IMG/VR virus record: IMGVR_UViG_3300008117_000789
Coordinates: 1-21,875 of that record
Source of the DNA: a virus
DNA length: 21,875 nt
Reading direction: 5' to 3' (one strand)
This document shows, one piece after another, positions 1,353 through 19,888 of this stretch; within the stretch, counting starts at the first letter, position 1; each line of letters begins with the position of its first letter. A program made the translations under genes and the position numbers. The notes under the pieces are model-generated. The model saw only the letters and a list, made by a program, of their open reading frames with translations, was not told where the DNA came from and made no database searches.

Positions 1353-1637
1353 ATGGCTGACATTACTCAAGATACAAAACTTAAATTAGCTCTTCCACAA
1401 GTTGTTAATATAGTTATTCTCATAATTGGCATTATTATGAGCTATATGACGACTAAACTAACTACTCAATACGATATTGATAATCTTAAAGAAAGAGTGA
1501 ATAAAATAGAAAGTGTTAAGCCTGAACTTCTTCAGTTTCAACTCAATTCGGTAAATGAGAAAATAGAGGAACTAAAGAAAAATCAGGGAACACAAAATGA
1601 GCTCATTCAAAAGATTTACGATACTCTTATTAAGTAG
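1353..1637 (+). CDS. Candidate i-spanin (inner-membrane spanin, Rz-like)
   Basis: A 94-residue protein with a short cytoplasmic N-terminus, one hydrophobic segment at about residues 15-33 (VVNIVILIIGIIMSYM) and a long charged helix with coiled-coil character from about 40 to the end. This is the architecture of i-spanins, which anchor in the inner membrane and reach across the periplasm to an outer-membrane lipoprotein partner to fuse the membranes at lysis. The next gene starts inside this one in another frame and encodes a lipoprotein, as in Rz/Rz1 pairs. It ends in TAG, one of only two genes here that do. If TAG is read as an amino acid, the protein gains 11 residues and ends at the TAA at 1668-1670. 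Function is inferred from topology and context, since spanins diverge too much for sequence recognition. Confidence 0.7.
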   Translation: MADITQDTKLKLALPQVVNIVILIIGIIMSYMTTKLTTQYDIDNLKERVNKIESVKPELLQFQLNSVNEKIEELKKNQGTQNELIQKIYDTLIK

Positions 1638-1872
1638 TATCACTTTTTCGGCGTGTACAAGCTATCCTAACGGAGAAGATGTACCCCTTGAGTACAATAC
1701 TGTAGTAATACTAGATACTATAGTTCACGCAGATAGTTCAAATTACCACATCAATTTGGTTAAGAACTTCGATAGCGTTGTCCATACTTTTCAAGAGTCT
1801 GAAAAGAAGATTCATAAGTTAGATAGCGTTGTTCAATTAAGGTGTAAACGTAAAAAACTTACTTACAAATGA
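1597..1872 (+). CDS. Candidate o-spanin (outer-membrane lipoprotein, Rz1-like)
   Basis: A 91-residue protein with a lipoprotein signal peptide: basic start (K5, R6), hydrophobic core LLLSSITF and the lipobox S-A-C with Cys20 as the predicted lipidated residue. The mature part of about 71 residues is charged and follows the outer-membrane sorting expected of a spanin partner. The gene overlaps the end of the i-spanin candidate by 41 bases in a different frame. Its TGA overlaps the holin-candidate ATG (ATGA). In Gram-negative phages the o-spanin binds the i-spanin through the peptidoglycan mesh and drives outer-membrane disruption once the wall is degraded. The lipobox is directly visible; the spanin role rests on the overlap and the neighbours. 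Confidence 0.72.
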   Translation: MSSFKRFTILLLSSITFSACTSYPNGEDVPLEYNTVVILDTIVHADSSNYHINLVKNFDSVVHTFQESEKKIHKLDSVVQLRCKRKKLTYK

Positions 1873-2102
1873 TTACATGGATTAAAGGATTCTTTGAAGC
1901 TGATAAGCCTCAGAGCTCCAAAAGACTAATGGGTATTGTATCCGGATTTGCTTTAATCTTGGTATGCATGCTCGACCTATTTAATGCTATTATAGTTCAC
2001 GAATGGGTAGGTTATGTACTCGCAGGTTACAGTGCAGCAGCTCTCGGGTTCTCATCTATTCCTGTCCCTACTTCTAAAAAGAAAACCGTAGAGAAAGAGT
2101 AA
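1869..2102 (+). CDS. Candidate holin, two membrane segments
   Basis: A 77-residue protein with two hydrophobic segments, about residues 21-41 and 45-63, joined by a short turn, and a lysine-rich tail (KKKTVEKE). Size, topology and the charged C-terminus match class II-type holins, which permeabilise the inner membrane at a set time. It follows the spanin candidates with a 4-base ATGA overlap, making a three-gene lysis cassette. No endolysin is seen in this window, so it must lie elsewhere in the genome if the reading is right. A hairpin that includes the stop codon closes the operon. Two further small membrane proteins at 16397-16961 are alternative holin candidates. Confidence 0.6.
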   Translation: MITWIKGFFEADKPQSSKRLMGIVSGFALILVCMLDLFNAIIVHEWVGYVLAGYSAAALGFSSIPVPTSKKKTVEKE

Positions 2103-2127
2103 TACTTGTAAAGTATTACAATTTTTC
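2099..2127 (+). terminator. Terminator after the lysis cassette
   Basis: A 9-bp perfect stem (GTAATACTT / AAGTATTAC) with a 3-base loop is followed by a T-rich run (ATTTTTCTT). The TAA stop of the holin candidate lies within the left arm. The stem is AT-rich and the loop tight, so it may be a modest terminator. A second, stronger one lies 66 bases downstream. Confidence 0.5.
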
Positions 2128-2192
2128 TTATTATATATATAGCATATACTTTTTGGTTTTTCTTCACTTTTCTTGTTGCTTTGTAGTTTCGT

Positions 2193-2230
2193 AGAATCCC
2201 CCGCCTAAAAAACGGGGGATTTTCTATTTG
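2193..2230 (+). terminator. Strong intrinsic terminator
   Basis: A GC-rich hairpin: AATCCCCCG at 2195-2203 and its exact complement CGGGGGATT at 2213-2221, loop of 9 bases, followed by TTCTATTT. It separates the lysis operon from the packaging operon. No gene lies between this and the preceding AT-rich hairpin. Confidence 0.8.
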
Positions 2231-2259
2231 TAATATTTAAACTTTAATTGTTATGTTTG
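2227..2259 (+). promoter_or_regulatory. Bacteroidetes-type promoter candidate
   Basis: TTTG at 2227-2230, a 21-base spacer and TATGTTTG at 2252-2259 match the primary-sigma promoter form of Bacteroides (TTTG near -33, TAnnTTTG near -7). It lies directly after the strong terminator and 23 bases before the ATG of the next gene, so it would start transcription of the packaging operon. A match this short can arise by chance in AT-rich DNA; the position is what supports it. Confidence 0.5.
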
Positions 2260-2282
2260 TAAAACATTAAATCTTATTTATT

Positions 2283-2609
2283 ATGACACAAGAAAACCAA
2301 CAAGAAGTAAGTCCAGAAGTTTTAGAGAATGCCAGAAAGAAAATGGTTGATTTCTACAAGCGAGAACTACCACTTATGCGTCTTCGTGCAGAGTATGAAG
2401 AACTAGCTACAAAGATCGATAAAGCTCGTTTTGACAGAATGGTAACGCAGATTCAAACTGCACAACTGCTTGATTCTCAGAACCAATTTGAACAAGATCA
2501 GTATGAACAAGAAGAAGAGGAACAAGTAGAACCTGAAGTTCCACAAGAAGAGGAAGAAGAGTTTAAAAAGCCTAGAAAACTCCGCTCACTTAAGAAGGAA
2601 ACAGTTTAA
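2283..2609 (+). CDS. Acidic coiled-coil hypothetical protein
   Basis: A 108-residue protein. Residues about 10-80 are predicted helical with heptad-like spacing. A very acidic Glu-rich stretch follows (about 75-95, with EEEEQ and EEEEEF runs), then a basic tail (KKPRKLRSLKK). I do not recognise the family. It is the first gene after the promoter candidate and the strong terminator, and opens the packaging operon. The charged segments suggest a partner-binding role, but this is speculation. The ATG is preceded by TTATT rather than a Shine-Dalgarno sequence. Confidence 0.7.
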   Translation: MTQENQQEVSPEVLENARKKMVDFYKRELPLMRLRAEYEELATKIDKARFDRMVTQIQTAQLLDSQNQFEQDQYEQEEEEQVEPEVPQEEEEEFKKPRKLRSLKKETV

Positions 2610-2630
2610 TAAAACTGTAAACATTTAAAA

Positions 2631-2651
2631 TTGTCAGTCACGTATACCAAC
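2631..2651 (+). promoter_or_regulatory. Leader motif copy A (GTCAG ... ACCAAC)
   Basis: TTGTCAGTCACGTATACCAAC directly abuts the ATG at 2652. The same bipartite arrangement, GTCAG then ACCAAC 6-8 bases later, occurs before the genes at 10197 and 12950. The function is unknown; a phage promoter, a processed 5' leader or a regulator site are possible. Confidence 0.4.
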
Positions 2652-3065
2652 ATGGCTAAAGTAAATCTTGTAACTAAAAATGTGAAATTGGAACTTGACG
2701 CTATCGTCAGGTTCCAATTAATTGTCTTTTCTTATTTACGGAACATCAACTTAAGTGAGCTAGACCTAGATTGTTTAACCTATTTGGGTTTAGCGGGTGA
2801 GATGGAACTTACAGATTTCTGTACTGAGATGGCAGAAATAAGAAGAGAGAAAAAGCTTGATGAGCTTAGGAGTAGTGGAAATAAAACCAAGAATCCTGAT
2901 GCTTCCCCACAAAGTATAAGAAACGTATTACTCAAAGCTGAGAGAGCAAATCTTATTTCTAAGAATGGAAAAGGTAGAAAGAAGATTTCTCTAAACCCTG
3001 AGATGCAAATCCAAACTGCAGGTAATATTGTTCTTAACTATAAAGTGTTTAGTCTTGAATCCTAA
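2652..3065 (+). CDS. Winged-helix DNA-binding protein
   Basis: A 137-residue protein counted from the ATG at 2652; an upstream in-frame TTG at 2631 is unlikely because it falls in the conserved leader motif. The C-terminal half looks like a winged helix: helix-turn-helix around 84-104 (ASPQSIRNVLLKAERANLI) followed by a basic wing (KNGKGRKKISL). The N-terminal half is helical. It sits with HU/IHF-like and nuclease genes upstream of TerL. Roles consistent with this are late-gene regulation or DNA recognition in packaging, including a small-terminase-like role. Its last codons overlap the start region of the HU/IHF-like gene. The domain call is moderate; the role is inference. Confidence 0.65.
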   Translation: MAKVNLVTKNVKLELDAIVRFQLIVFSYLRNINLSELDLDCLTYLGLAGEMELTDFCTEMAEIRREKKLDELRSSGNKTKNPDASPQSIRNVLLKAERANLISKNGKGRKKISLNPEMQIQTAGNIVLNYKVFSLES

Positions 3066-3504
3066 GAAGCTTAAACCACTGATTAAGAAGTTCTGTGATG
3101 CTAATGGCGTAGACCAGAAAACCGCAGAAATTATCATTGATGCTTATTGGAAACGAGTTAAAAAAGCTCTGACTGAACCTGAACACATAAGCATCTATGT
3201 CCATGGATTTGGTACTTTTTATATAAAACCTAATCGTCTTGAGAAGAGAATTAAAATGTCTCAAGATATAATAAACAAATACCAAGAGATCATTGACTCA
3301 GGTCATAGAATTACAATGCAGAAGTATGCAATCATGCAGGACAAGAAAAAAGCTTTAGAAAAACTTGAGAAAATGATACCTCTGCTTCAAGAAAAAGCTA
3401 CATACAAAAGTGAAATAAAAAACCAAAGAGATGAATATAAGAGAGATTTGGAAGAACAAAACCAAGATTCTAGAGGGGATAAAGAACTCTCTGATCAAGA
3501 GTGA
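3055..3504 (+). CDS. HU/IHF-family DNA-binding protein
   Basis: A 149-residue protein if translation starts at the TTG at 3055 (NPKKLKPLIKKF...). No in-frame ATG precedes the conserved core; a second TTG at 3028 is the alternative. Residues about 3-62 have the HU/IHF pattern: helical dimer region with basic residues, then IYVHGFGTFYIKPN, where HGFGTF is the family signature before the DNA-binding arm. A long Lys/Glu-rich predicted coiled coil (about 65-149) extends well beyond the roughly 90 residues usual for the family. HU/IHF proteins bend DNA and are commonly encoded near the packaging genes of crAss-like phages. The start overlaps the winged-helix gene by 11 bases, so coupled translation could permit the weak start codon. 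Confidence 0.78.
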   Translation: MNPKKLKPLIKKFCDANGVDQKTAEIIIDAYWKRVKKALTEPEHISIYVHGFGTFYIKPNRLEKRIKMSQDIINKYQEIIDSGHRITMQKYAIMQDKKKALEKLEKMIPLLQEKATYKSEIKNQRDEYKRDLEEQNQDSRGDKELSDQE

Positions 3505-3760
3505 ACACATTGAACAGATTGCTTCTGAAAGAATGAAGCTCTGTGAAGCATGTGATCTCATCGATAGAAAAGGATCAGAGTGTGCTTTACCTGGTACTCA
3601 ACCATGCTGTGGTGAATGCGGGTGTAAACTTTCCTATAAAGTAAGATCTCTCTCCTCTGAATGTCCTCATCCTAAAGGATCACGCTGGAATGCCATTTTA
3701 AGTGAAGAAGACGAAGACAAATTCTACGATCAAATAAACTACAATCCAGATATAGACTAA
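3431..3760 (+). CDS. Cys-rich zinc-binding protein
   Basis: A 109-residue protein with eight cysteines in a compact region: C38-x2-C41, C51, C59-C60, C63, C65 and C78. The segment GTQPCCGECGC followed by a basic patch and ECPHPKGSRW looks like a zinc-ribbon fold seen in small phage proteins. The N-terminal 35 residues are helical (IWKNKTKILEGIKNSLIK). The ATG at 3431 lies inside the HU/IHF-like gene, a 74-base overlap. I keep it because the helical N-terminus continues smoothly into the Cys domain and feels conserved, but a later start cannot be excluded. A nucleic-acid or protein-binding role is likely and the exact job is unknown. Confidence 0.72.
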   Translation: MNIREIWKNKTKILEGIKNSLIKSEHIEQIASERMKLCEACDLIDRKGSECALPGTQPCCGECGCKLSYKVRSLSSECPHPKGSRWNAILSEEDEDKFYDQINYNPDID

Positions 3761-3761
3761 T

Positions 3762-4589
3762 ATGGCGGTACTATTCAAATCAGAAAATCATAAATACGAG
3801 AGTCAGGATCCTAACGATAATATCCAATGGTTAGGAGTTACATCAATGATCAAACAGTTTAAAGAACCATTTGATCCTATTGCTGTATCTAAAAAAGCTT
3901 CTGTTAATCCTAATAGTAAATGGTATGGTTTAGACCCAGCTGTTATTAGAGAACATTGGGAAAAAGAAACCGATAGAGCTATTCTTAATGGTAGTTATTT
4001 CCATGACCAAAGAGAATCGGATACTGTTAGTCTTCAGACACTTAGACGACAGGGCTTAGATATACCGATCATCCCTCCTATTTATAACGGTAATATTAAG
4101 CTTGCACCAGAACAGAGACTAGTTGACGGTATCTATCCAGAACACTTTGTTTACTTGAAATCTGCAGGTATTTGTGGTCAAGCTGATAGGGTTGAGGTTG
4201 TAAATGGTGTAGTAGACATTGTAGACTTTAAGACTAATAAAGAGATTAAGACCAAGAGCTTTACTAATTGGGAAGGTGTTAGTACCAAAATGCTAGGTCC
4301 TTGTTCTCACTTAGATGACTGTAATTTCAATCATTATGCTTTACAATTGAGTACTTACATGTACATTATTCTAAAGCATAACCCTAGATACAAACCTGGA
4401 ACAATGACTTTACACCACATCATTTTTGAAAAAGAAGGTGAAGATTCATTTAAATTCCCTATCTATAAGAAAAATGAAAAAGGAGAAGCTATTGTAAAAG
4501 AAGTAGTTCCCTATACTGTCCCTTACTTAAAAGACGAAGTAATAGCGATGTTTAATTGGATAAGAGACAATAAAGATCAAGTAAAATGA
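3762..4589 (+). CDS. PD-(D/E)XK nuclease, RecB/Cas4-like
   Basis: A 275-residue protein with the ordered motifs of the RecB-like nuclease branch. These are a His after a small-residue helix (NGSYFH, H81), a Gly-rich strand with an acidic residue (GICGQADRV, D142), the core VDIVDFKTN (D155, K157) and the QLxxY helix motif (QLSTY, Q195-Y199). All four are intact, so metal-dependent DNA cleavage is expected. Nucleases of this group occur in the packaging neighbourhood of crAss-like phages, where end processing or recombination are plausible roles. The start is one base after the preceding TAA. The TGA overlaps the next ATG (ATGA). Confidence 0.85.
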   Translation: MAVLFKSENHKYESQDPNDNIQWLGVTSMIKQFKEPFDPIAVSKKASVNPNSKWYGLDPAVIREHWEKETDRAILNGSYFHDQRESDTVSLQTLRRQGLDIPIIPPIYNGNIKLAPEQRLVDGIYPEHFVYLKSAGICGQADRVEVVNGVVDIVDFKTNKEIKTKSFTNWEGVSTKMLGPCSHLDDCNFNHYALQLSTYMYIILKHNPRYKPGTMTLHHIIFEKEGEDSFKFPIYKKNEKGEAIVKEVVPYTVPYLKDEVIAMFNWIRDNKDQVK

Positions 4590-5101: not shown

Positions 5102-7301
5102 TGATTTTTATAAGAAAATCCCTACGTGGGAAAATGACGAATGGTCTTACACTGAGTTTTATAACTACGATGAGTTTCGGGAATTTGTAAAATCTCTTTT
5201 TAAAGAACCCGGTAAATATGAATTTGATGATGTAGCATTTGAATTCAATTTACAAGCTAGAAAATACAACGATAGAAAATACTACTGTCCTTTTCCTGAA
5301 GGTACAGCAGACTTTAAAAAGTATTGGAACGGAGAAAAAGAGAAATGTAAAGAAGGAGTAATTTATAAAAGCGGTAAGAAGATATGGTATCTCCCTAGGG
5401 AATACTACATGTGGATCAACTTCTTACCAATCAATGATAAGAAAAAAAGGAAGTTCGGTTTCCCTGATGTATGGGATTCTCAATATCATATGGCTCTATA
5501 TGAGCTATTAGCTGAGTTACATTACCAGCATTGTGCAGTCCTAAAGAAACGTCAGTTTGGATCTAGCTATTATCACTGTGCTAAGCTCATAAATCAAATA
5601 TGGTTTGAGGAAACTCCTATTCTTAAAATAGGCGCATCACTCAAAGACTACATAAATGAAAAGGGATCTTGGAAGTTCTTAAACGAGTATAAATCTTTCC
5701 TAGATAGTGAGACGGCGTGGTATCGTCCTATGAACCCTGGAAAGGTTCTCATGTGGCAGCAGCAGATTGGAGATACAGACTCTAACGGTCGTGAAACTCT
5801 GAAAGGTCTTAAAGGAACTATTCAGGGTGTATCCTTTGATAAAGATCCTACAACAGGTGTAGGTGGTGGGGTAAGGTACTTCTTCTACGAAGAAGCGGGG
5901 ATTGCACCTACAATGGATCAGACAGTGGAATACATGTTTCCTGCGTTACAGTTAGGTGACATTACTACTGGTGTATTTATTGCAGCTGGTTCCGTGGGTG
6001 ACCTTGATCAATGTGAACCTTTAAAAAAGATGATGCTATTTCCTATTAGACATAGCATATATCCTGTCGAGACTAATCTAATTGATAATAAAGGGACTAT
6101 AGGTCTATCAGGATTATTCATTCCTGAACAGTGGTCAATGCCTCCATACATTGATCAATATGGTAACTCACTAGTAGAAGAAGCACTAGAAGCTCTTAAC
6201 TCTAAGTTTGAGAAGTGGAAGAAGGATCTTGATCCTCAGACCTATCAGCTTAGGGTATCACAGCATCCGCGTACTATTGAGGAAGCTTTCGCGTTTAGAA
6301 ACGTATCCCTTTTCCCTACTCATTTACTCTCAGCTCAAAAAGCTAGAATAGATGATAAAGACTATCCATATGAGTTTGTAAATCTTGCATGGAACGAAAA
6401 GGGTGAAGTAGTTCATACTACCAGTAATAAATTACCGATTTTAGAGTTTCCTATTTCAAAGAGTACAGAAGATAAAACAGGCTCTATCGTAGTATGGGAA
6501 AGACCTGATAAGAATGCAGAGTGGGGGACATACTATGCATCTATTGACCCGGTGTCAGAAGGAAAAACTACAACTTCTGATTCTCTATGTTCTATCTATG
6601 TCTACAAGAATCCTGTAGAAATAACTCGTGTAGGAGCTGATAAAGTAGAATCATTCATGGAGCGAGACAAGATTGTAGCTGCATGGTGTGGTCGTTTTGA
6701 TGATATCAATAAAACACATGAGCGTCTCGAGCTCATAATTGAGTGGTACAGCGCGTGGACAGTAGTGGAAAATAACGTTTCCCTATTCATCCAGCACATG
6801 ATTCATAGAAAGAAACAGAAGTATCTAGTTCAGAAAGACCAAATGCTTTTCTTAAAAGACATTGGTGCATCTAGAAACGTCTACCAAGAATATGGTTGGA
6901 AGAACGTGGGTACAATCTTTAAGAATCACATGCTTAGTTATCTCATCGAATTTTTAAATGAAGAGCTAGATGTAGAAACTAAAACAGATGGTACGATAGT
7001 TAAAAAGGTATATGGTGTTGAACGTATACCTGATATTATGGCGATCAAAGAGATGGAAGCTTATAATGATGATATAAACGTTGACCGTTTAGTTTCATTA
7101 GCAGCTCTTATTACTTTTGCTAAAGTTCAACAAGCAAACAGAGGATTAAAGAAAAGAACTGAATATACTGACAGATCACATTTGCAAAAATCTTCTGATT
7201 TATATAAATTATCAGTAAGCCCTTTCCGTAATTTAGGAAAAAATAATAGGGGTGGACTAAACATGGGTAAACCTAGGAACCCCTTTAAAAACATAAAGTA
7301 A
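5088..7301 (+). CDS. terL: Terminase large subunit (TerL)
   Basis: A 737-residue packaging motor that would dock on the portal, pump DNA with ATP and cut the concatemer. The ATPase domain shows a deviant Walker A at about 153-160 (KKRQFGSS, without the usual GK[ST]), a Walker B with catalytic acidic pair at about 263-269 (VRYFFYEEA) and the coupling motif around 296-303 (GVFIAAGSVGD). The nuclease domain has three acidic positions: D487 in YYASIDPVSEG, E561 in WTVVENNVS and D666 in NINVDRLVSLAAL-like context. Length and motif spacing match crAss-like TerLs as I know them. The start overlaps the preceding gene by 14 bases. It ends 4 bases before the portal gene. Confidence 0.9.
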   Translation: MTRNDDFYKKIPTWENDEWSYTEFYNYDEFREFVKSLFKEPGKYEFDDVAFEFNLQARKYNDRKYYCPFPEGTADFKKYWNGEKEKCKEGVIYKSGKKIWYLPREYYMWINFLPINDKKKRKFGFPDVWDSQYHMALYELLAELHYQHCAVLKKRQFGSSYYHCAKLINQIWFEETPILKIGASLKDYINEKGSWKFLNEYKSFLDSETAWYRPMNPGKVLMWQQQIGDTDSNGRETLKGLKGTIQGVSFDKDPTTGVGGGVRYFFYEEAGIAPTMDQTVEYMFPALQLGDITTGVFIAAGSVGDLDQCEPLKKMMLFPIRHSIYPVETNLIDNKGTIGLSGLFIPEQWSMPPYIDQYGNSLVEEALEALNSKFEKWKKDLDPQTYQLRVSQHPRTIEEAFAFRNVSLFPTHLLSAQKARIDDKDYPYEFVNLAWNEKGEVVHTTSNKLPILEFPISKSTEDKTGSIVVWERPDKNAEWGTYYASIDPVSEGKTTTSDSLCSIYVYKNPVEITRVGADKVESFMERDKIVAAWCGRFDDINKTHERLELIIEWYSAWTVVENNVSLFIQHMIHRKKQKYLVQKDQMLFLKDIGASRNVYQEYGWKNVGTIFKNHMLSYLIEFLNEELDVETKTDGTIVKKVYGVERIPDIMAIKEMEAYNDDINVDRLVSLAALITFAKVQQANRGLKKRTEYTDRSHLQKSSDLYKLSVSPFRNLGKNNRGGLNMGKPRNPFKNIK

Positions 7302-11408: not shown

Positions 11409-12872
11409 ATGGCAACACCACTTTTAAACAATGGTATTTTTCTACGTGATACGAACTACCAAGCTAGTTCTCACGTAGATTCTTACCACCTGGTAAACAT
11501 GCTGAAAGATGCGGAGCCTATGGACATGGGTCCAGTCGATATTTGGGCGATGGCTCAGAAAGTCGAAATGCCGCTTTATCAGTTGTCTTCCTTTGGTGGT
11601 AAGAATGTGATTATGGTTGACAATGCTCGGGGTGAGTACAAGTGGCAGACCCCAGTAAGTCAAGACCTTCCTTACATTCTTGAAGACATCGAACCTGAGA
11701 ACGAAACCAAAGGTATCGACGGTACGACTTTCAGAATTAAGATTAACAAACGCGAATTTGGACATGGTGACATCATCACCTATGACAAATACAACGGCGT
11801 TGAAATGTACATCACGGACGATGACATCCTTCCTCTCGGGGATGGTTTCTTGTACACCGTTCGTTTGGTGAACAACGATAACTATAAATTCTTGGAGAAC
11901 AAGTACCTTGCTCCTCAAACGAAGATCTTCCGTAAAGGATCTGCTCGTGGTGAGTACGGTGAGCGTTTCTCCGATATTCAAACTCGTTCGGGCTTCCGCG
12001 AATAGGATATCGCTTCCAAAATGGGTAAAGACTACCTGAAGCGCGCAGTAGGTAATGGTACCTTGACCCGCACCTTCCTTACTACGATGGAAGCAGCTCA
12101 CTTGACCAAGATTGCTACGGACATCGAAACCTACTTGATGTGGGGACATGGTGGTCGCGTTAAGCAAGACGGTCCAGATGATATCCGTCTGTCTGTAGGT
12201 CTTTGGAAACAACTTGACAACTCCTTCAAGCGTGTTTACAACAAGTCGAACTTCTCCTTGGAGTTGTTCCGTGCTGAGTTGTACAACTTCTACGCTGGTC
12301 GTGTCGAGTTCCAAGGTCCAGATCCTAAGCGCCAACTCATCGTCCAAACGGGTATGGGTGGTATGCGTATGGTCAACGAAGCGATCAAGCGTGAAGCAGT
12401 GAACTCCGGTCTTGTTATTCAGGCAGCAGATAACAATGGTATCGGCGCAATCACGGGTAAAGGTATGGACTTGAACTTTGGGTTCGCGTTCACCAGCTAC
12501 GTGATTCCGTTTCTTGCTAACGTGAAGTTCGTCTTGAACCCAGCATTCGATAACATTTACACAAATGACATCGAAAACCCGATCATTGATGGACATCCGC
12601 TTAGCTCCTATAGCTTTATCATTTTCGACATCACCGACACTGGAAACGACAACATCTTCATGTTGAAGCTTTCGTGGGACAATCAATTGAAGTGGTGGTA
12701 TCAGAATGGTACTATGGACTACATGGGCCGTACCCAAGGATTCCAGTCTTCTGGTCAGTTCAACGGTTACCGTGTCATGATGACCCAAACGATGCCTGCG
12801 ATTTGGGTAAAAGACCCTACCAAAGTGTTGAAGATTGTCATGCGCAATCCGATCACCGGCGGTAGTTTCTAA
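11409..12872 (+). CDS. Major capsid protein with in-frame TAG at codon 199
   Basis: The frame runs from ATG 11409 to TAA 12870-12872, 487 codons, and is broken only by a TAG at 12003-12005. Read through, the product is about 487 residues, close to the roughly 490 of crAss-like HK97-fold capsid proteins. The position after the scaffold gene and before a strong terminator fits. Both halves have the same strong codon bias: between 11442 and 12788 the frame contains no TTA, CTA or TCA codon although neighbours use them freely. Both halves lack cysteine. Only 5 codons separate the TAG from the next in-frame ATG (12021). Read literally, the gene would be two products of 198 and 283 residues. I favour one protein made by TAG suppression or reassignment (Gln in related phages); a nonsense mutation or base-call error is the alternative. 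Confidence 0.82.
12003..12005 (+). other. In-frame amber codon in the capsid gene
   Basis: The codons run CGC GAA TAG GAT ATC GCT, with frame and codon bias unchanged on both sides. TAG is one transition from CAG (Gln). Some crAss-like phages are known to read TAG as Gln using a suppressor tRNA; none is seen in this window. Confidence 0.85.
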
Positions 12873-12949: not shown

Positions 12950-13975
12950 ATGGCAAGAGGAATTTCTATTGTACAAGTCCCTTACGAAGGTGCAAAAAGC
13001 ACTAGTGTGACAATTCGTCCCTATTTTGACCCAGAAGCTAGTAACCTAGGTTTGGAGAGATATGGGATGGCTCTTTATGATGGTGTGTTTCATGAAGAAC
13101 AGTTAGCATGTATCGAAAGAAACGGAATCAGCAGATACATTACTGGTCTTAATGAGTTTGCACCTGAAGTAAAAAACATTGCTAACAAGGAAGAAAGAGA
13201 AGCTAAGATTAAAGAAATCAGAAAAGTTGTTTCTCAATTAGAGAAAGAACTTTGTGCTAACATTGTTGATCCTGATGATCCTGAGTTTTGGAATAAGCTA
13301 AAACTTCTTCGTCCTGATAACAATGAATTCTGGGATAGAATTACACTCCGTTGTGGGAATGATCAAGTTATTCTTGATCCAGCTAAAGACCCTTATGATT
13401 TAATTAAACTCTATGCAATCGAAGCAGGTGGATTCTCAATGGTCGCCCCAAGTCTTGAGACAGCTAAATCTAAAGCTGTACCTCCTAAGTTCTTTTTGGA
13501 CAAAGCCGTTGACACAATTGCTACGAAAACTGAGCTTAAGAAACTCAAAAACAAAGCACTCTCAGAGCTCGATTCGTTGTTCAATAAAAACCCCAACAAG
13601 TTGCTTTACATTGCGAAAGTACTTGACGGGAACAGCGCGTCGTACAAAAAATCCACACCGAACGATTTGATCTATGATAACATGGACAGATATATTAACG
13701 GTGATGGTATTGAAACTAATCTTCATAGAGCAGCTAAATCCTTTATTGATGCAGCGGATCTTGATATGGAAACATTGAAACTCCGCGCATTGGTGAAAGA
13801 CGCTACGTTCTATAAGTATATCACGGCTCGTTCTGATGGATTCATTTATGAAGTCAGCGAATCAATCCAAATGGGTAGAAACCCAAGCGATTGTGTTGAG
13901 TTCTTGAAAAATCCTTTGAATGACCAAGTTCTTCTCAAGCTTCAAAAGAAGGTTGAGTATCATTGGAAACAATAA
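12950..13975 (+). CDS. Conserved structural-region protein downstream of the capsid gene
   Basis: A 341-residue soluble protein with no signal peptide or membrane segment. The N-terminal 60 residues are mixed; a charged helix lies around 80-110 (NKEEREAKIKEIRKVVSQLEKEL) and the C-terminal half is mainly helical. I recognise the position (directly after the MCP in crAss-like phages) more than the fold, and cannot name a function. A virion or assembly role is likely. It is the first gene after the MCP terminator and carries leader motif copy C, so it may head the operon of small basic proteins that follows. Confidence 0.7.
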   Translation: MARGISIVQVPYEGAKSTSVTIRPYFDPEASNLGLERYGMALYDGVFHEEQLACIERNGISRYITGLNEFAPEVKNIANKEEREAKIKEIRKVVSQLEKELCANIVDPDDPEFWNKLKLLRPDNNEFWDRITLRCGNDQVILDPAKDPYDLIKLYAIEAGGFSMVAPSLETAKSKAVPPKFFLDKAVDTIATKTELKKLKNKALSELDSLFNKNPNKLLYIAKVLDGNSASYKKSTPNDLIYDNMDRYINGDGIETNLHRAAKSFIDAADLDMETLKLRALVKDATFYKYITARSDGFIYEVSESIQMGRNPSDCVEFLKNPLNDQVLLKLQKKVEYHWKQ

Positions 13976-13986
13976 CTTATATCGAT

Positions 13987-14157
13987 ATGTCAAGTCATAT
14001 GAAAAACAAAAACCAATACCCTACGGTGGTAACTAATCCTACCAAGTATCGTGGTGGTATGAATGCTCCTGTAACTGTGGAGACTAATCCTACTCGTTAC
14101 ACGGGTGGTTTGAATAAAGCTGCTTGTGATGTTCCTACTGGTAAACTCAAAAAGTAA
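13987..14157 (+). CDS. Small basic protein with an internal repeat
   Basis: A 56-residue protein from ATG 13987; ATG 13999 (52 residues) is also possible, and an upstream in-frame ATG at 13963 lies inside the previous gene. It contains two copies of a short unit, TNPTKYRGGMN and TNPTRYTGGLN, 18 residues apart, so it arose by an internal duplication. It is rich in Lys, Asn and Gly and has no membrane segment. The function is unknown. It opens the run of small basic proteins. The bases TGTCAAGTCAT at 13988-13998 also occur directly upstream of the gene at 19965. Confidence 0.6.
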   Translation: MSSHMKNKNQYPTVVTNPTKYRGGMNAPVTVETNPTRYTGGLNKAACDVPTGKLKK

Positions 14158-14163
14158 GAACTC

Positions 14164-14412
14164 ATGAAAAAGATGTCATCTAAAAAAACTATGTCGAGCA
14201 AGCCCACTTATAAAGTGGGCGGCTCTACAAAGTCTGTATCTGATATGCAGCAGAGAGGTAAAGAGTCTATTACGAAAGGTACTGGTAAGTTTACTACTGG
14301 TGTTCAAATGTATGGACCGGGTTACAAGGGAAATCCTAATGCTCCTAAACCTTTTGTTGGTGCAGCTCCTGCTAAGAAAAAAGGTGGTGCTGTTAAATCA
14401 AAGAAAAAGTAA
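14164..14412 (+). CDS. Small Lys/Gly-rich basic protein
   Basis: An 82-residue protein, very rich in Lys, Gly, Ser and Thr, with no cysteine and no long hydrophobic stretch. It begins KKMSSKKTMSSK and ends KKKGGAVKSKKK. Low complexity and charge suggest a DNA-binding or capsid-internal protein, which is inference. The stop shares a base with the next start (TAATG). Confidence 0.65.
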   Translation: MKKMSSKKTMSSKPTYKVGGSTKSVSDMQQRGKESITKGTGKFTTGVQMYGPGYKGNPNAPKPFVGAAPAKKKGGAVKSKKK

Positions 14413-14651
14413 TGGGAAAGGTTAGAGTATCAGCAGGTGGTGAAAAACACGTTGTCTATAAAAAGACGAGTAAACGTGGTAAAGGAGAACCTGGTGATAT
14501 TATGGTAAACCATCCTACTAAAGACAAAGGTAAGTGGGATACCATTAATCTAACTAAGATCGGTAAAGCTAAGACAGTTGCTCAAGGTGTAGCCGCTACT
14601 AAAAAATGGCATAAGGATAACCCCGATTACAAGTATAAAAAGAAGAAATAA
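14412..14651 (+). CDS. Small basic protein
   Basis: A 79-residue strongly basic protein with a C-terminal lysine run (YKYKKKK). It has some globular content (PGDIMVNHPTKDKGKWDTINL, a predicted strand-turn region, and a helix with AKTVAQGVAATKKWHK). I do not recognise a named family. It overlaps the previous stop by one base and is separated from the next gene by only TT (TAATTATG). Confidence 0.65.
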   Translation: MGKVRVSAGGEKHVVYKKTSKRGKGEPGDIMVNHPTKDKGKWDTINLTKIGKAKTVAQGVAATKKWHKDNPDYKYKKKK

Positions 14652-14653
14652 TT

Positions 14654-15076
14654 ATGGCACTCTATTCATTAAACCCGTTTAAAAGGGTTTGGCAGTATAC
14701 TCACAGAACTCCTAAAGAACTTGTTCAAGCAGGAACTCCATACAAAGTTTATAGAGCTCTTGTTTTTCAAGCTGGGACAGAAGCACCTGTAGTTGAGGTA
14801 TTGGAAAACTCATTGAATATTAATATCACATTTTCCTATGAAGGACCTGGTGACTATTTAGGAATTATTGATAAAAATATTTTTGAATCACCTAATGAAG
14901 ATGTTACTATTACTAGTGCATTTTTTGATTCTGGTACAGCTACCGCGTGTGTAGCAATGACCGCTCCTGTTTTCTTTAATGCTCTCTTTATTAACGTGTA
15001 TAAAGATGGAGTAGAAACAGATGACATTTTGGGATCGAGCTGCAACATTGTTCTTGAAATTAGAAAATATAAATAA
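14654..15076 (+). CDS. Small beta-rich virion-like protein (140 aa)
   Basis: A 140-residue protein. From about residue 28 it has a pattern (TPYKVYRALVFQAGTEAPVVEVLEN) that recurs in small proteins of Bacteroidetes phages and seems to begin a beta-sandwich domain. The remainder is strand-rich (ITFSYEGPGDYLGII, then two further strand pairs). A capsid-decoration or head-fibre role would fit the position among structural genes, but I cannot assign it by sequence. It starts two bases after the previous TAA in the context TAATTATGGCA. Confidence 0.6.
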   Translation: MALYSLNPFKRVWQYTHRTPKELVQAGTPYKVYRALVFQAGTEAPVVEVLENSLNINITFSYEGPGDYLGIIDKNIFESPNEDVTITSAFFDSGTATACVAMTAPVFFNALFINVYKDGVETDDILGSSCNIVLEIRKYK

Positions 15077-15078
15077 TT

Positions 15079-15219
15079 ATGGCACAGCGGGATAAAAACA
15101 GCTGGTCTGATCCAGCAGCACTTCTTACAAGATTGTTAAACAAGTACGCTTATTTGAAGGACAATGGTGTTACTGCAAATAGGATTTACAATCTTATTCT
15201 GAAGATTAATAAGAAGTAA
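15079..15219 (+). CDS. 46-aa helical small protein
   Basis: A 46-residue protein from ATG 15079 to TAA 15217-15219: MAQRDKNSWSDPAALLTRLL and a basic helical end. It starts in the recurring context TAATTATGGCA. Two short amphipathic helices are predicted. Support comes from its exact fit in the gap between its neighbours, the shared start context and basic composition. The function is unknown. Confidence 0.6.
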   Translation: MAQRDKNSWSDPAALLTRLLNKYAYLKDNGVTANRIYNLILKINKK

Positions 15220-15224
15220 TAACT

Positions 15225-15398
15225 ATGGCTAAGAGTAAAGTAAACCAAGCAGGTAACTATACCAAACCAGGTATGAGAAAGTCTTTATTTAAAAAGATTA
15301 AAGCTGGTTCAAAAGGTGGTGATCCTGGTGAGTGGTCTGCTCGTAAAGCACAAATGCTCGCCCGTGAATATAAATCCAAAGGTGGAGGTTATAAGTAA
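15225..15398 (+). CDS. 57-aa basic protein, KSKGGGYK type
   Basis: A 57-residue protein beginning MAKSKVNQAGNYTKPGMRK and ending AREYKSKGGGYK. This pattern (NxAGNYTKPGMRK, GxPGxWSARKAQ, a Gly-rich YK end) is one I know from small proteins of many crAss-like and other large phages, so it is very likely a real conserved gene. It is basic and has no membrane segment. A virion-internal or DNA-binding role is plausible but unproved. The stop overlaps the next start (TAATG). Confidence 0.75.
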   Translation: MAKSKVNQAGNYTKPGMRKSLFKKIKAGSKGGDPGEWSARKAQMLAREYKSKGGGYK

Positions 15399-15667
15399 TG
15401 GGTTTAGCTAAATCACAGCAGTCTTTAAAAAATTGGACTGACCAAAAATGGATGACCTCTGGGACTTATGCGAATAAGAAAAAGGGGTCATCTAAAGAGG
15501 TTAAAGCTAATGGTAAAAAGAGATACTTACCTGAAGCTGCGTGGGCGTCATTATCGTCCGGTGAAAAAGCTGCTACTAACAAAGCTAAAGCAGAAGGAAA
15601 TCGTAGGGGAAAACAGTTTGTTTCTCAACCAAAAGGTATTAAACAGAAAACTAAACGTTATAGATAA
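15398..15667 (+). CDS. DUF5872-like small basic protein
   Basis: An 89-residue basic protein. The pattern LKNWTDQKWMTSG, then RYLPEAAWASLSSGEKAAT, and the ending GKQFVSQPKGIKQKTKRYR, matches the small basic DUF5872 family as I remember it from large phages and viruses; I could not check this by search. The start shares a base with the preceding stop (TAATG) and the stop is followed by TT and the next ATG. The function is unknown; abundance of Lys/Arg suggests DNA contact. Confidence 0.7.
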   Translation: MGLAKSQQSLKNWTDQKWMTSGTYANKKKGSSKEVKANGKKRYLPEAAWASLSSGEKAATNKAKAEGNRRGKQFVSQPKGIKQKTKRYR

Positions 15668-15669
15668 TT

Positions 15670-16116
15670 ATGGCATTACCAGAATTTAAAACCCCTAGAA
15701 GATACAATTGGCAGTTAGCTCACGATAGAATTTCTAGAGACAATACTGCTTTTTATTTTCATAACTGTAATCTTGGGACTGTTATTGAGGTTAATACTTT
15801 AAAAGGTATTATTGAGCTTAATAAGTTTGATGTCTTTATGACAAATCCTAAACCAGCTTTTGGTTCACCTGTACAGTTGTACATTAATAATCCTGCACTT
15901 GATCTTACCGAAGCAAATAGGGATAATATATACGTACAAATTACCCCCTATTATAAGAGAAGCACTGATGATAACGCACTTCCTTATGTTGTACCCAACG
16001 GGTTTATTATTAATGGATTAGGTATTGAAGTTTATAATGCTAATCCTCAACCTGCTGGTACAAATCAATGGGAAGGAGCGCTTTATATTTATTATGAAAT
16101 CTATACTATAAATTAA
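15670..16116 (+). CDS. Small beta-rich virion-like protein (148 aa)
   Basis: A 148-residue strand-rich protein with little charge clustering and no membrane segment. Its pattern of strands (LGTVIEVNTLKGIIELN, GSPVQLYINNPAL, GALYIYYEIYTIN) suggests a compact beta-barrel or jelly-roll. In this neighbourhood such proteins are often capsid decoration or auxiliary head proteins. I do not recognise the family. It starts in the context TAATTATGGCA, coupled to the DUF5872-like gene. Confidence 0.6.
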   Translation: MALPEFKTPRRYNWQLAHDRISRDNTAFYFHNCNLGTVIEVNTLKGIIELNKFDVFMTNPKPAFGSPVQLYINNPALDLTEANRDNIYVQITPYYKRSTDDNALPYVVPNGFIINGLGIEVYNANPQPAGTNQWEGALYIYYEIYTIN

Positions 16117-16124
16117 TAATCATC

Positions 16125-16397
16125 ATGGCACAAAGTAAAAAACAACAAGCAGCTATCGCTATGTCTATGAAAGCTGCAGGTAAAAAACCTAAGATGCAAA
16201 AAGGTGGTAGCTTTCCTGATCTTAACAAAGATGGTAAAGTGACTCAAGCTGATATCCTTAAGGGTAGAGGTGTTTACAAAGCTGGTGGTATGGCTAAACC
16301 CATGATGAAAACCGGTGGTTACTCTAATCCTAATAAGTCTGCAGTAGTATCTCCCAAAATGAAAATGGGTGGGTCTTCTAAGATGAAGAAGAAGTAA
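16125..16397 (+). CDS. Small basic protein with an EF-hand-like loop
   Basis: A 90-residue Lys/Gly/Met-rich protein. At about residues 32-43 it contains DLNKDGKVTQAD, which fits a calcium-binding EF-hand loop (D1, N3, D5, G6, V8, D12) followed by a short helix (ILKGRGVYK). The rest is low complexity (KMQKGG, GGMAKPMMKTGG, KMKMGGSSKMKKK). I have seen similar FPDLNKDGKVT segments in crAss-like phage proteins. Calcium binding is plausible because the loop is complete; the role could be in virion stability. The stop overlaps the next start (TAATG). Confidence 0.7.
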   Translation: MAQSKKQQAAIAMSMKAAGKKPKMQKGGSFPDLNKDGKVTQADILKGRGVYKAGGMAKPMMKTGGYSNPNKSAVVSPKMKMGGSSKMKKK

Positions 16398-16699
16398 TGA
16401 AAGAATTAATAGAGGAGTTAGGGATAAACATTGGAATATCTGTTGCAGGATTATTCGGTGCACTTATTCTAATTGGTAAAGACGCTGCTCATAGTTGGAA
16501 AACATCCATGTTTTCAATTATCACAGGAGTTGCGTCTGCTAATTACATAACTCCTCTATTTCTTGATATTACTCGCATAGACATTAAATATCAAATGTCT
16601 GTGGGATTTATTCTAGGATTTTTAGGACTGAAAGGTGTAGAGATTATCAGTAATAAACTTCTTAAAGTAAAAATCAATGGAGTATCTAAAGATAATTGA
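16397..16699 (+). CDS. Small membrane protein, holin-like
   Basis: A 100-residue protein with two or three hydrophobic segments (about 11-27, 36-56 and 67-85) and a charged C-terminus. Size and topology are like holins, but the more convincing lysis cassette lies at 1353-2102. The gene shares a base with the preceding stop and overlaps the next membrane-protein gene by 23 bases, so the two are probably a pair. It may be a second holin, an antiholin or an unrelated membrane protein. Confidence 0.6.
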   Translation: MKELIEELGINIGISVAGLFGALILIGKDAAHSWKTSMFSIITGVASANYITPLFLDITRIDIKYQMSVGFILGFLGLKGVEIISNKLLKVKINGVSKDN

Positions 16700-16961
16700 T
16701 GCTATAGCTAATTTGATTACTACATTAGGAATTAGCGTCTTTATGATCTTCGTATTTGGAAGATTAAGTTTATTGCAAAAACTTTCAGTGTTTGAGACTT
16801 ACACTATTAAAGTTGGTCTTGCACTTACTGCATCTGGAGCATTCCTCAATATTTTTACTACGACTGTTCCAAGTATTACAGAGGTTATTCTAAATGTTGG
16901 TTTAGCAGTAATTTTTGTATGGACAGCTTTGTTTCATTACAGACACTTTGTTAAAAAATAA
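16677..16961 (+). CDS. Small membrane protein, partner of the preceding gene
   Basis: A 94-residue protein with three hydrophobic segments (about 13-30, 43-61 and 66-86) and a basic tail (HYRHFVKK). It overlaps the preceding membrane-protein gene by 23 bases in a different frame, which favours joint production and direct partnership. The function is unknown; holin/antiholin or superinfection-related membrane roles are possible. No signal peptide or conserved motif is visible. Confidence 0.6.
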   Translation: MEYLKIIDAIANLITTLGISVFMIFVFGRLSLLQKLSVFETYTIKVGLALTASGAFLNIFTTTVPSITEVILNVGLAVIFVWTALFHYRHFVKK

Positions 16962-16962
16962 C

Positions 16963-17211
16963 ATGGCTAAATCACCAGCTTGGCAGCGTAAAGAGGGTAA
17001 GTCTCCTAGTGGAGGACTTAACGCTAAGGGTCGTGCTTCTTATAATAGAGCTACTGGGGGTAATTTGAAACCACCACAACCTGAAGGAGGTTCTCGTAAG
17101 AAGTCATTCTGTGCGAGAATGGAGGGTATGAAAAAGAAGTTAACTAGTTCTAAAACCGCCAAAGATCCTGATTCAAGGATCAATAAGGCACTACGTAAGT
17201 GGAAATGCTAA
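16963..17211 (+). CDS. DUF6321-like small basic protein
   Basis: An 82-residue protein from ATG 16963. The sequence MAKSPAWQRKEGKSPSGGLN, the following KGRASYNRATGGNLKPPQP and the end SRINKALRKWKC form a well-conserved pattern I associate with DUF6321 proteins of large phages, giving good confidence that the gene is real. It is rich in Lys/Arg and Gly, with two cysteines near the end. The function is unknown. The start is one base after the previous stop, and its stop overlaps the ring-protein start (ATGCTAA). Confidence 0.75.
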   Translation: MAKSPAWQRKEGKSPSGGLNAKGRASYNRATGGNLKPPQPEGGSRKKSFCARMEGMKKKLTSSKTAKDPDSRINKALRKWKC

Positions 17212-17906
17212 ACTCTACTATTCTCATAAAAGTTCGTCAAAGACTTAATAAACTGTCTAGTCTCGATTATGATAACATCGAAGACTGGGCGATTATTGAA
17301 GCTTTTAATAAAGGACAAGTAGAGTGGTGTAGAAGAAACTTACACGGTAATAATCTCTTTAAAGAAGGAGACGATGAGTCTAAAAGACGCGTCGATGATT
17401 TACAGATTCTTATTGAAGAAGTAAACCTTACTCTTACTGATAGAGGTTTGTATTACGAAAGCGAAGATTTTCCTGCTGATTATTTAGAGTATAAGAGAGT
17501 TACAGCATATGGTAAAAACGACTGTTGTAACGAAAGGAAAATGGTAGTTTATCTTGCTGAACAAGATAACGTAGACGCGCTTCTTCGTGATGAAGTAAAG
17601 AAACCAAGCTTTGAGTGGGCTGAGACATTTGCTACACTTTCAGGTAATAGAGTTCAGATTTATACAAATGATGAATTCGTAATTACTAAAAGTTCTTTTA
17701 TCTATTACCGTCAACCCATAAGGATAGAAATAGCAGGTGTATCAAACCCCTATACAGGATTAGTATCAGCTGCTGATGTACTTTGCGAATTTAAAGATGA
17801 CATTGTTGAATTGTTTATTGATTCCGCAGCTTCTATTATTGCAGGTGATATTGAGTCTTTCAATCAAATGCAAAGAACAAATCAAGCAGTAGAACAAAAT
17901 AACTAA
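17205..17906 (+). CDS. Head-tail ring / connector protein (crAss-like R1 type)
   Basis: A 233-residue protein from ATG 17205; a GTG at 17199 is a less likely start. The N-terminus (LNSTILIKVRQRLNKLSSLD followed by NIEDWAIIEAFNKGQVEWCRRN) fits the helical connector or tail-tubular family that forms the first ring below the portal in crAss-like and P22-like phages. A mixed beta region follows and the end is Gln-rich. It would sit between portal and tail. The gene overlaps the previous one by 7 bases and shares a base with the ferritin start (TAATG). Family assignment is from remembered pattern and context. Confidence 0.72.
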   Translation: MLNSTILIKVRQRLNKLSSLDYDNIEDWAIIEAFNKGQVEWCRRNLHGNNLFKEGDDESKRRVDDLQILIEEVNLTLTDRGLYYESEDFPADYLEYKRVTAYGKNDCCNERKMVVYLAEQDNVDALLRDEVKKPSFEWAETFATLSGNRVQIYTNDEFVITKSSFIYYRQPIRIEIAGVSNPYTGLVSAADVLCEFKDDIVELFIDSAASIIAGDIESFNQMQRTNQAVEQNN

Positions 17907-18436
17907 TGGCAGATTTACTCAAAAGACCGGTGCGTAAAGGACGCAATCCTCTTCTCGATGAAGAGTCGACAAAATATTTGAATTACAGAATCCAACAAGA
18001 GGAGCTTTCAAGTAGGATTTATCTTTCGATGTCCATGTGGTTGAACAACGAAGGATACTCAGGAGCAGCTCAACTTTGGAGAAAGTATTCAAATGAAGAA
18101 CTAGCTCACGCTGACTGGGCGAGAGAATATCTTCTTGCTATGGGAGTAACACCCGATACTCCAATGTTAGCAGCACAACCATTAACATATGATGGTCTTC
18201 CTGATATTATTAAAAAGTCATTTCAACATGAGATTGAAATTTCTAAACAAATTAAGGAAGCTGCATCTAATGCTATGAAAAAGGGTGATCATATGTTATA
18301 TCAGTTGTTCTTACAATATCTTAAAGAGCAAGTAGAAGAACACGATAAAATGCAGACATGGGTAGATAAACTGAATTCGTTTGGTGAAGACGCTGTCGCT
18401 TTACGTTTTCTTGATAATGAAATGTCACAATTGTGA
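17906..18436 (+). CDS. Ferritin (FtnA-type, ferroxidase centre intact)
   Basis: A 176-residue protein that aligns without gaps, at a constant offset of 15 residues, to bacterial FtnA from the first helix to the fourth. All ferroxidase ligands are present: E32 (FtnA E17), Y39 (Y24), E65 (E50), H68 (H53), E109 (E94), E141 (E126), Q142 (Q127) and E145 (E130). The end LRFLDNEMS matches the fifth-helix region. It should oxidise and store iron as a 24-subunit cage. Unlike FtnA it has a basic 15-residue N-terminal extension (KRPVRKGR). Its start shares a base with the ring-protein stop, and it lies in the structural operon, so it is expressed with virion genes. A misidentified Dps or ferritin-like protein is unlikely, since Dps lacks this ligand set. 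Phage origin or transfer from a host is not resolved by sequence alone. Confidence 0.92.
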   Translation: MADLLKRPVRKGRNPLLDEESTKYLNYRIQQEELSSRIYLSMSMWLNNEGYSGAAQLWRKYSNEELAHADWAREYLLAMGVTPDTPMLAAQPLTYDGLPDIIKKSFQHEIEISKQIKEAASNAMKKGDHMLYQLFLQYLKEQVEEHDKMQTWVDKLNSFGEDAVALRFLDNEMSQL

Positions 18437-18449
18437 TTTGCATTATTCA

Positions 18450-18480
18450 TTCTGCTTTATTATATTATAGTATATGTTTG
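18450..18480 (+). promoter_or_regulatory. Promoter candidate for the 462-aa gene
   Basis: TATGTTTG at 18473-18480 matches the Bacteroidetes -7 element (TAnnTTTG), identical to the element at 2252. It is 19 bases before the ATG at 18500. A clear TTTG at the right upstream distance is missing (nearest, TCTG at 18451-18454, is imperfect), so confidence is modest. Confidence 0.4.
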
Positions 18481-18499
18481 TTTAATCTTTATAAATACA

Positions 18500-19888
18500 A
18501 TGGCTTATTTCAATCACGCATTTAGTAAGATGTTCGTCGGTACTGGCGACACTCTTACGACTCCTGCGGCGCTGGTAAACGCGACCGAAGGATTTATTAC
18601 TAGTGTGGGGGTTCCGACTGGAGCACCTAACACTAGTGATACCTGTATTGTTAACTTAGGTCCTGGGTACTATGGATTTGTTAATCCTAAAACTTGGCAG
18701 ACTGTTGGAAACGTAGCTCCAAATGACTGTTGTCCTTTGGTTCTTGTTTCTAGTTCTGTTTTGGAACGTGACAAGATTGGTAAATTCCATGGTGGTTACA
18801 TTGAAACTAACAAGTCTAAAGTAATCAATCCTAGGTACATCCAACGTTTTTATCGCGTTGACCCATGTGTTCCTCAGCAGTGTGTTATCTCTATTGGTAA
18901 CACTCCTCAAACTGAGGTTCCTGCTCTTCCTGCAGATAGATTCCAAAGTGGTACTACTCAAGCACAGTGCTGCAAAGAGTTCTTGTGCGGTGAAACGTAC
19001 TACCTCCGTATTGATGTCAAAGGTTCTCCTGCACTTCGCGCATTGAACCACCAAGCATACTATACGGTGGATGCTTACACTGGATGTTGCGATGATCAAC
19101 CCGATGATCCGCTTATTCCGCCAACTGCAGTTGACTCTACTATTGTAATGATCAAATGGGCTGAGCAAATTGTTAGAACTCAGTACCTGAATCAATTCAT
19201 TGCTCCTGTAGTGTATGACCAAAATGGTGTAGCATGGTACGCTCCTGGTACTGAGTTTACCTATGATGGTACTAATACTCCAGTTGTTGAAGCACAATGG
19301 TGGACTAATTACCCATATCCTGGATATATCAATGATACTTGTGCAGGTCTTCGTTTGTTTGGTGCTTATGTTGATACAAGATTCCTTGACTGTACTTTCC
19401 AAGTAACTGATTACTTTGAAAAAGAGCCTCTGAGAATCTTTGCATCTGAAGTGGACTACACTGGAGATCCATGTCTCTTTACTGGTCTTTGTGTTTACAA
19501 CGACTGTAATGGTATCCAAGGTATGGGATTTGGTGAGCAAGTAGTAAGGGATTTGATCCGTTCCGAAAGCTACCTCCAAAACTTCTTCCATACGGATCTT
19601 CGTATCAGGGAGATTACTCAAGGTAACCAATTCCTTAACGTAATCAACCGTCAGAATCTGTATACCCGTTACTATATCTTGCATAGTGTTCCTAGGTATA
19701 ATAACCCAACTGGTACTTTCGATAACGATCGTTACCTGCTTGAGATTATTACCAATGGTGATAATGCAGTTCTTGAAGGGTTTATTGAAGATTGGTTGGG
19801 TAACTGTCCGCAATGTGTCGAATTTGAAACCGTTACTTGCGAACCATGTGAGATCGTTCCTGATCCAGAACTCATCATCATCCCTTAA
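18500..19888 (+). CDS. Abundant Cys-rich structural protein (462 aa), unrecognised
   Basis: A 462-residue protein with 19 cysteines, three of them as CC pairs (NDCCPL, AQCCKE, TGCCDD), and several CxxC-like or clustered sites towards the end (GNCPQC, VTCEPC). The MCP, by contrast, has none. It is beta-rich, has no signal peptide and no membrane segment. Between 18656 and 19813 its codons avoid TTA, CTA and TCA, as in the MCP. It has its own promoter candidate and a strong terminator, so it is probably one of the most abundant late proteins, likely a major tail, collar or head component. The cysteines could bind metal or form disulfides. I do not recognise the family and do not assign a function. 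Confidence 0.75.
   Translation: MAYFNHAFSKMFVGTGDTLTTPAALVNATEGFITSVGVPTGAPNTSDTCIVNLGPGYYGFVNPKTWQTVGNVAPNDCCPLVLVSSSVLERDKIGKFHGGYIETNKSKVINPRYIQRFYRVDPCVPQQCVISIGNTPQTEVPALPADRFQSGTTQAQCCKEFLCGETYYLRIDVKGSPALRALNHQAYYTVDAYTGCCDDQPDDPLIPPTAVDSTIVMIKWAEQIVRTQYLNQFIAPVVYDQNGVAWYAPGTEFTYDGTNTPVVEAQWWTNYPYPGYINDTCAGLRLFGAYVDTRFLDCTFQVTDYFEKEPLRIFASEVDYTGDPCLFTGLCVYNDCNGIQGMGFGEQVVRDLIRSESYLQNFFHTDLRIREITQGNQFLNVINRQNLYTRYYILHSVPRYNNPTGTFDNDRYLLEIITNGDNAVLEGFIEDWLGNCPQCVEFETVTCEPCEIVPDPELIIIP

Follow-up and report, generated by a model that had tools for sequence, protein, structure and literature searches.

The window, i.e., the whole stretch of 21,875 nucleotides that was analyzed, carries a ferritin gene in the position between a ring protein gene and a downstream flanking gene (hereafter, the slot), with the following features.

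17199-17906, + strand: ring (neck/tail-barrel) protein gene, the upstream partner of the slot (phrog_29507; tblastn)
17904-17908, + strand: TAATG stop/start overlap that couples the ring and ferritin genes (sequence)
17906-18436, + strand: FtnA-type ferritin gene, 176 aa (PF00210, PDB matches, AlphaFold/Foldseek, invariant ligands)
17915-17929, + strand: N-terminal tag, residues 4-8 (LLKRP), a motif common to slot proteins and rare elsewhere
17930-17956, + strand: short linker, residues 9-17, of differing length among homologues
17957-18433, + strand: five-helix ferritin body with complete ferroxidase A/B/C sites (AlphaFold, Foldseek, ligand conservation)
18461-18481, + strand: AT-rich promoter-like element TATATTATAGTATATGTTTGT between the ferritin gene and g30 (motif match)
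18500-19888, + strand: downstream flanking gene g30, 462 aa, the right-hand border of the slot (conserved neighbor in relatives)

An earlier note on this DNA had called the product of 17906-18436 an intact FtnA-type ferritin that keeps every ferroxidase ligand it named (E32, Y39, E65, H68, E109, E141, Q142, and E145), and both statements stand. The ORF, with an ATG start and a TGA stop, matched Pfam Ferritin with an E-value of 1e-24 and 87.5 bits, passing the gathering threshold of 24.5, and phmmer aligned its product without gaps to E. coli FtnA and to the V. cholerae ferritin 3qz3 (E = 2e-22). The top NCBIfam model was PRK10304 FtnA (E = 4.5e-21), but the score of 75.5 bits lies below the equivalog cutoff of 178 bits, and by this measure the protein is FtnA-type without being an FtnA equivalog. 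The AlphaFold model (pLDDT 89.7) displayed a four-helix bundle followed by a short C-terminal helix E (helices at residues 19-48, 52-78, 98-126, 129-159, and 163-174), and Foldseek gave TM scores of 0.88 to 0.96 for its comparison with E. coli FtnA. The residues of iron sites A, B, and C are all present in the window protein. Besides the eight ligands named above it carries E64 and E144, and none of these ten ferroxidase-site residues varied in the 57 unique phage ferritins (57/57). The FtnA-type ligands E17, E50, H53, E94, Q127, and E130 and the FtnA-type C-site residues E49, E126, and E129 were likewise kept in 57/57. Judged by sequence and model, the window gene codes for an FtnA-type ferritin that looks catalytically intact.

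The product of the adjoining upstream gene matched phrog_29507, "virion structural protein" (E = 5.7e-13), and tblastn found the "ring protein" of csAssE-Sib and a virion structural protein of Cellulophaga phi17:2, consistent with the head-tail ring gene that had been proposed. Its TAA stop codon (17904-17906) shares one base with the ferritin ATG (17906-17908), which is the TAATG coupling described previously. Matches of other window genes to capsid (crassvirus), terminase, and portal proteins identify the window as part of a crAss-like phage genome. The late structural position claimed for the ferritin gene holds as well. On the other side, g30 shares its gene-order position with phi17:2 gp063, a "structural protein". 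The intervening element TATATTATAGTATATGTTTGT matches exactly once in the window (shuffle mean of 0.09 at 3 mismatches), and a TATATTA-like string lies 5′ of g30 in 127 of 148 relatives as a raw count. The element suggests that a fresh transcript may begin downstream of the ferritin gene and is a possible late promoter. Elsewhere in the window, small basic Lys/Gly-rich ORFs that are weakly conserved in relatives fill positions 13963-17211, from the post-capsid gene to the ring gene. The major capsid gene (11409-12872) is broken into two ORFs; the near-identical contig L002 (99.7%) has a single 541-aa capsid ORF with 162 additional bases at window position 12003/12004, so the window assembly has probably suffered a deletion there. 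About 287 bases of L002 that are absent at 14229-14231 mark a second likely assembly gap.

Ferritin relatives were collected by a direct search, which returned 33 viral contigs, and by a profile search (best 80 of 86). Pairwise dN/dS values of about 0.01 to 0.18 indicate purifying selection on the phage ferritin genes. A chance insertion or a decaying gene was ruled out by the 57 unique homologues and by dN/dS <0.2; the earlier note had said that absence from the position in all relatives together with decaying codons would mark the gene as such an insertion, and the slot ferritins described below and the same ratios refute that condition. The tree of bacterial and phage ferritins that it had proposed placed the phage proteins in a single clade, separate from 12 sampled cellular ferritins (SH-aLRT 100). 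These outgroups were drawn from plasmid records and from a sample of Bacillota genomes, and since cellular sequences are few and several branches long, the tree establishes that the phage clade is distinct and does not tell its origin. The closest plasmid-borne bacterial ferritins were only about 32% identical to the phage proteins, and a search of genome contigs for cellular relatives yielded one contig only, L355, with a phage-like ferritin. The gene in question (1090-1689) is of the phage type and lies on a 5.5-kb contig binned as a Tissierellales MAG; its neighbor genes are unlike a bacterial operon, so this is probably a misbinned phage contig. The ferritin at 1420-1893 of a gut "phage" contig (L372, MT838721.1) groups with Phocaeicola/Parabacteroides ferritins, which we read as recent host transfer or contamination.

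The slot was surveyed on contigs recruited through the ring protein, blind to slot content; 79 were scored and 73 had both borders. Some of these contigs are close relatives of one another, so the counts do not represent independent events. The earlier note had suggested scanning related phages for a ferritin at the same position, and 13 of the 73 slots did contain one; the usual occupant was instead a Dps-like mini-ferritin (DUF5856/phrog_858; 51/73, including L178), and nine slots held neither. Two of these nine, the otherwise empty slots of L161 and L163 (about 5701-5754), retain a match to the final 18 codons of a Dps-like gene, remnants that point to deletion of such a gene. Since 12% of slots hold neither protein, the slot protein is dispensable. 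Occupants were almost exclusively ferritin-superfamily proteins, and the position behind the ring gene is a dedicated slot for them. This bears on the view that the gene is ordinary host-acquired cargo with no particle role, sitting in a tolerated insertion site. Such cargo would be missing from some relatives, as this gene is, but the near-uniform occupancy, the separation of the phage clade from cellular ferritins, the low identity to plasmid-borne ones, and the strength of purifying selection all speak against it, and we regard this already disfavored view as very improbable.

The Dps-like slot protein belongs to Pfam DUF5856 and to phrog_858, "starvation-inducible transcriptional regulator". 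Its model was a four-helix bundle whose top Foldseek match was Dps, with an E-value of only 0.005 and a TM score of about 0.7. His44, His56, Asp71, and Glu75 were kept in 106/106 sequences with the spacing of H51, H63, D78, and E82 in E. coli Dps; in place of Dps Asp67 the phage proteins have Asn or Gly, leaving four of the five ferroxidase residues exactly spaced in 106/106. The two kinds of occupant were almost mutually exclusive on contigs of 92 to 123 kb: no Dps was found elsewhere on seven ferritin contigs of 103 to 122 kb, and no ferritin on twelve Dps contigs of 92 to 123 kb (using a query validated by a positive control), contigs that are perhaps incomplete. Tandem ferritin and Dps pairs were present in L024, L028, L012, and L298. 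On the ring-protein tree (n = 163; built by a quick method, some branches being long), the occupant, scored by Dps label, switches at least 23 times, with 16 of these switches forced by well-supported branches. In one swap pair, L306 (ferritin) and L224 (Dps), an identity of ∼96% persists until 27 bases inside the gene, precisely where the tag ends, and homology returns from the intergenic region onward. Homology reaches 32 bases into the gene for the pair L341/L125 and ends at the gene border, not inside the gene, for L345/L147. These alignments indicate that in some natural swaps the body was exchanged behind the tag, with DNA homology crossing the tag and then ending.

The window ferritin begins MADLLKRPV, and residues 1-9, which contain the tag, are predicted to be disordered (pLDDT <50). 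N-terminal extensions of the slot proteins (median of 39 residues in ferritin and 26 in Dps-like proteins) typically open with MEKPRMLKR(P/D/N), and the shared tag takes the form R-x-L-K-R, or hydrophobic-K/Q-R-P, before a variable linker. The first form occurred in 80/108 Dps proteins, 15/58 ferritins, and 5 of ∼3,130 other genes; the second, scored as [LIV][KQ]RP, in 25/108, 24/58, and 1 of ∼3,130, respectively. Among representatives below 80% identity the strict motif was found in 15/27 ferritins and 26/34 Dps proteins (shuffle expectation, 0.4), and the tag was less frequent in ferritins (about 56-70%) than in Dps-like proteins (76-91%). Of 20 whole contigs (∼2.1 Mb) searched with two DNA tag patterns, 13 matched, once each and always at the slot. 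That the tag marks cargo in general, on further proteins of the phages, was rejected: no such use was found in the survey of ∼3,130 other genes or with the two DNA patterns. A targeting peptide is recognized as a short conserved N-terminal peptide on different bodies, and this is what the slot proteins have; at the level of sequence, they are modular, made of a short N-terminal peptide, a variable and flexible linker, and an exchangeable body.

Because the ferritin tags use 15 different 9-mers, the peptide itself is under selection. In the Dps genes the tag codons are more constant than codon usage predicts, so shared ancestry and recombination, through shared DNA, contribute to the tag. A purely nucleotide element was also considered; it is partly supported in Dps, and its sole-cause version fails on the 15 ferritin 9-mers. 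Basic Dps tails bind DNA, and the extension might be a tail of this kind, as in E. coli Dps, that coats and protects phage DNA before packaging. The extensions are indeed net positive, mostly +2 to +3, and Dps-like relatives are annotated as DNA-binding (phrog_3636), but conservation falls on an ordered motif (hydrophobic, then K or Q, then R) rather than on overall charge: K can give way to Q, whereas the hydrophobic residue and R persist. We consider a DNA-binding tail improbable.

The homology through the tag in the swaps and the codon conservation would also fit inheritance by recombination. They are thereby in keeping with the main rival of a particle role, in which free ferritin or Dps lowers Fe(II) and Fenton damage in the cytoplasm during packaging, late in infection, and the tag is a recombination by-product. 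In a study of freshwater phages, ferritin stands among many reported ROS-defense genes and late cytoplasmic ROS/iron control is proposed (PMC6802176); Dps and Mn-catalase are known from gut phages (PMC8008677). Furthermore, in many T4-like phages the Dps-like family gene adjoins the lysis gene rI, outside the head genes. Against cytoplasmic control, the peptide is retained with differing codons in the <80%-identical representatives while the adjoining linker varies, and genes of this kind recur next to portal, ring, and head-protease genes in several lineages. We rate this rival as unlikely, though a good deal less so than the DNA-binding tail.

The recurrence takes several forms. In a second crAss-like lineage (L012 and L298), a ferritin-Dps pair is flanked by portal and capsid genes; the pair members start MALDINS/MIDINK in L298 and MALDIAK/MININK in L012, an M-(A)-DIN beginning that, in these few sequences, is unlike the slot tag and partly common to both members. 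In the unrelated podoviruses DSL-LC05 and ctNMl277 a Dps-like gene overlaps the portal gene by one base, and in ctEw122 it follows a connector gene; membership in phrog_858 was confirmed for the podovirus Dps-like genes. In L354 a ferritin immediately precedes a protein that contains a head maturation protease domain, and Foldseek found a ferritin-like fold (moderate TM) within proteins named prohead protease. The ferritins of L287, L328, and L346 are more distant from head genes. Near the L287 ferritin, two adjacent genes (1530-3038 and 3362-4573; 502 and 403 aa) have the common start MFGPESKLFPKQSK, a local duplication.

Taken together, the slot, the common peptide, and the swapping favor a particle- or assembly-associated role over a free cytoplasmic ferritin. 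The earlier note had offered, without choosing, iron sequestration in the infected cell, protection of replicating DNA, or carriage of iron in the particle; the particle option, still unproven, is the one now favored, and a free cytoplasmic ferritin has become less so. The slot, tag, and swapping had escaped that note because they are not visible from one sequence. Our best explanation, which we hold at close to an even chance, is that the slot protein oxidizes iron, bears a docking tag, and acts at or in the virion; the particle probably carries it, inside or on its surface. It would be synthesized late alongside the neck proteins, and its N-terminal peptide would dock on a conserved partner in the neck, the portal, or the head interior while the particle assembles. 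The exchangeable body, a ferritin (24-mer type) or Dps-like mini-ferritin (12-mer type), would form a cage that, at or in the virion, presumably oxidizes Fe(II) and binds it, and either packaged DNA would be shielded from Fenton damage or the protein would travel with the DNA into the next cell. More tentatively, this aquatic crAss-like clade may package ferritin and Dps-like bodies as interchangeable cargo, in or on its particles, via a phage-specific N-terminal docking peptide, and the next host would thereby receive iron, or the capacity to oxidize it, with the virion.

The best explanation draws support from the intact site (57/57), purifying selection, the slot, the tag, the swaps, and the recurrence at neck and head genes. 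It is weakened by the weaker tag in ferritins, the conserved Dps tag codons, the dispensable slot, and the ferritins that sit further from head genes; in addition, ferritin 24-mers form shells of about 12 nm, which would have to unfold to pass a portal. T4 internal proteins are diverse, yet have a common capsid targeting sequence (PMC3012670), and zones of protein cargo are known from the capsid and tail barrel of the crAss001 virion (PMC10172136); both are precedents for the presumed docking and virion steps.

Our literature search, which covered published and mainly open-access papers, found nothing direct on ferritin or Dps of crAss-like phages or on DUF5856, and nothing on the slot, the common tag, or ferritin-Dps swapping. 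Phage ferritin and Dps are thus already known, and the slot, tag, and swapping appear to be new. Genes of phages for iron and ROS functions are generally classed with the auxiliary metabolic genes that work inside the host; the crAss-like clade described here, which is environmental and widespread, reserves a place among its virion genes for an iron-oxidizing protein and swaps two ferritin-superfamily bodies behind one peptide. If virion-borne, these proteins would represent a natural ferritin-in-capsid system, their short tag would offer a means to load proteins into crAss-like particles, and the question whether phage particles contain or bear iron (the Ferrojan Horse idea) would become directly testable.

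Compared with FtnA (E. coli 1eum and V. cholerae 3qz3), the window ferritin has the same gap-free alignment, five helices including helix E, and A/B/C residues; it differs in being only about 30% identical, in its additional N-terminal tag and linker, and in being encoded behind a phage ring gene in a separate phage clade. Dps (DUF5856/phrog_858) is the usual occupant of the slot where the window ferritin lies, but the window protein is no Dps, and the phage Dps-like proteins themselves depart from Dps in the Asn/Gly at Asp67 and the weak fold E-values (0.005). Encapsulin cargo ferritins are ferritin-like proteins with a short terminal cargo-loading peptide and a linker, loaded into an HK97-fold shell. 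The window ferritin resembles them in its terminal peptide and linker and its link to an HK97-fold shell, whereas its peptide is N-terminal and different, and the shell is a DNA-filled phage head. Slot proteins and T4 internal proteins (PMC3012670) both combine differing bodies with one short conserved sequence, a likeness in design without evident sequence relation, packaging of the slot proteins being presumptive. Finally, the ferritins of freshwater phages (PMC6802176), of viruses in BFVD, and of NCLDV, the last described as eukaryotic-type (PMC7136201), are virus-encoded like the window ferritin; as far as the accessible parts of these two papers go, the window ferritin stands apart from them in its structural slot, its tag, and its swapping with Dps.
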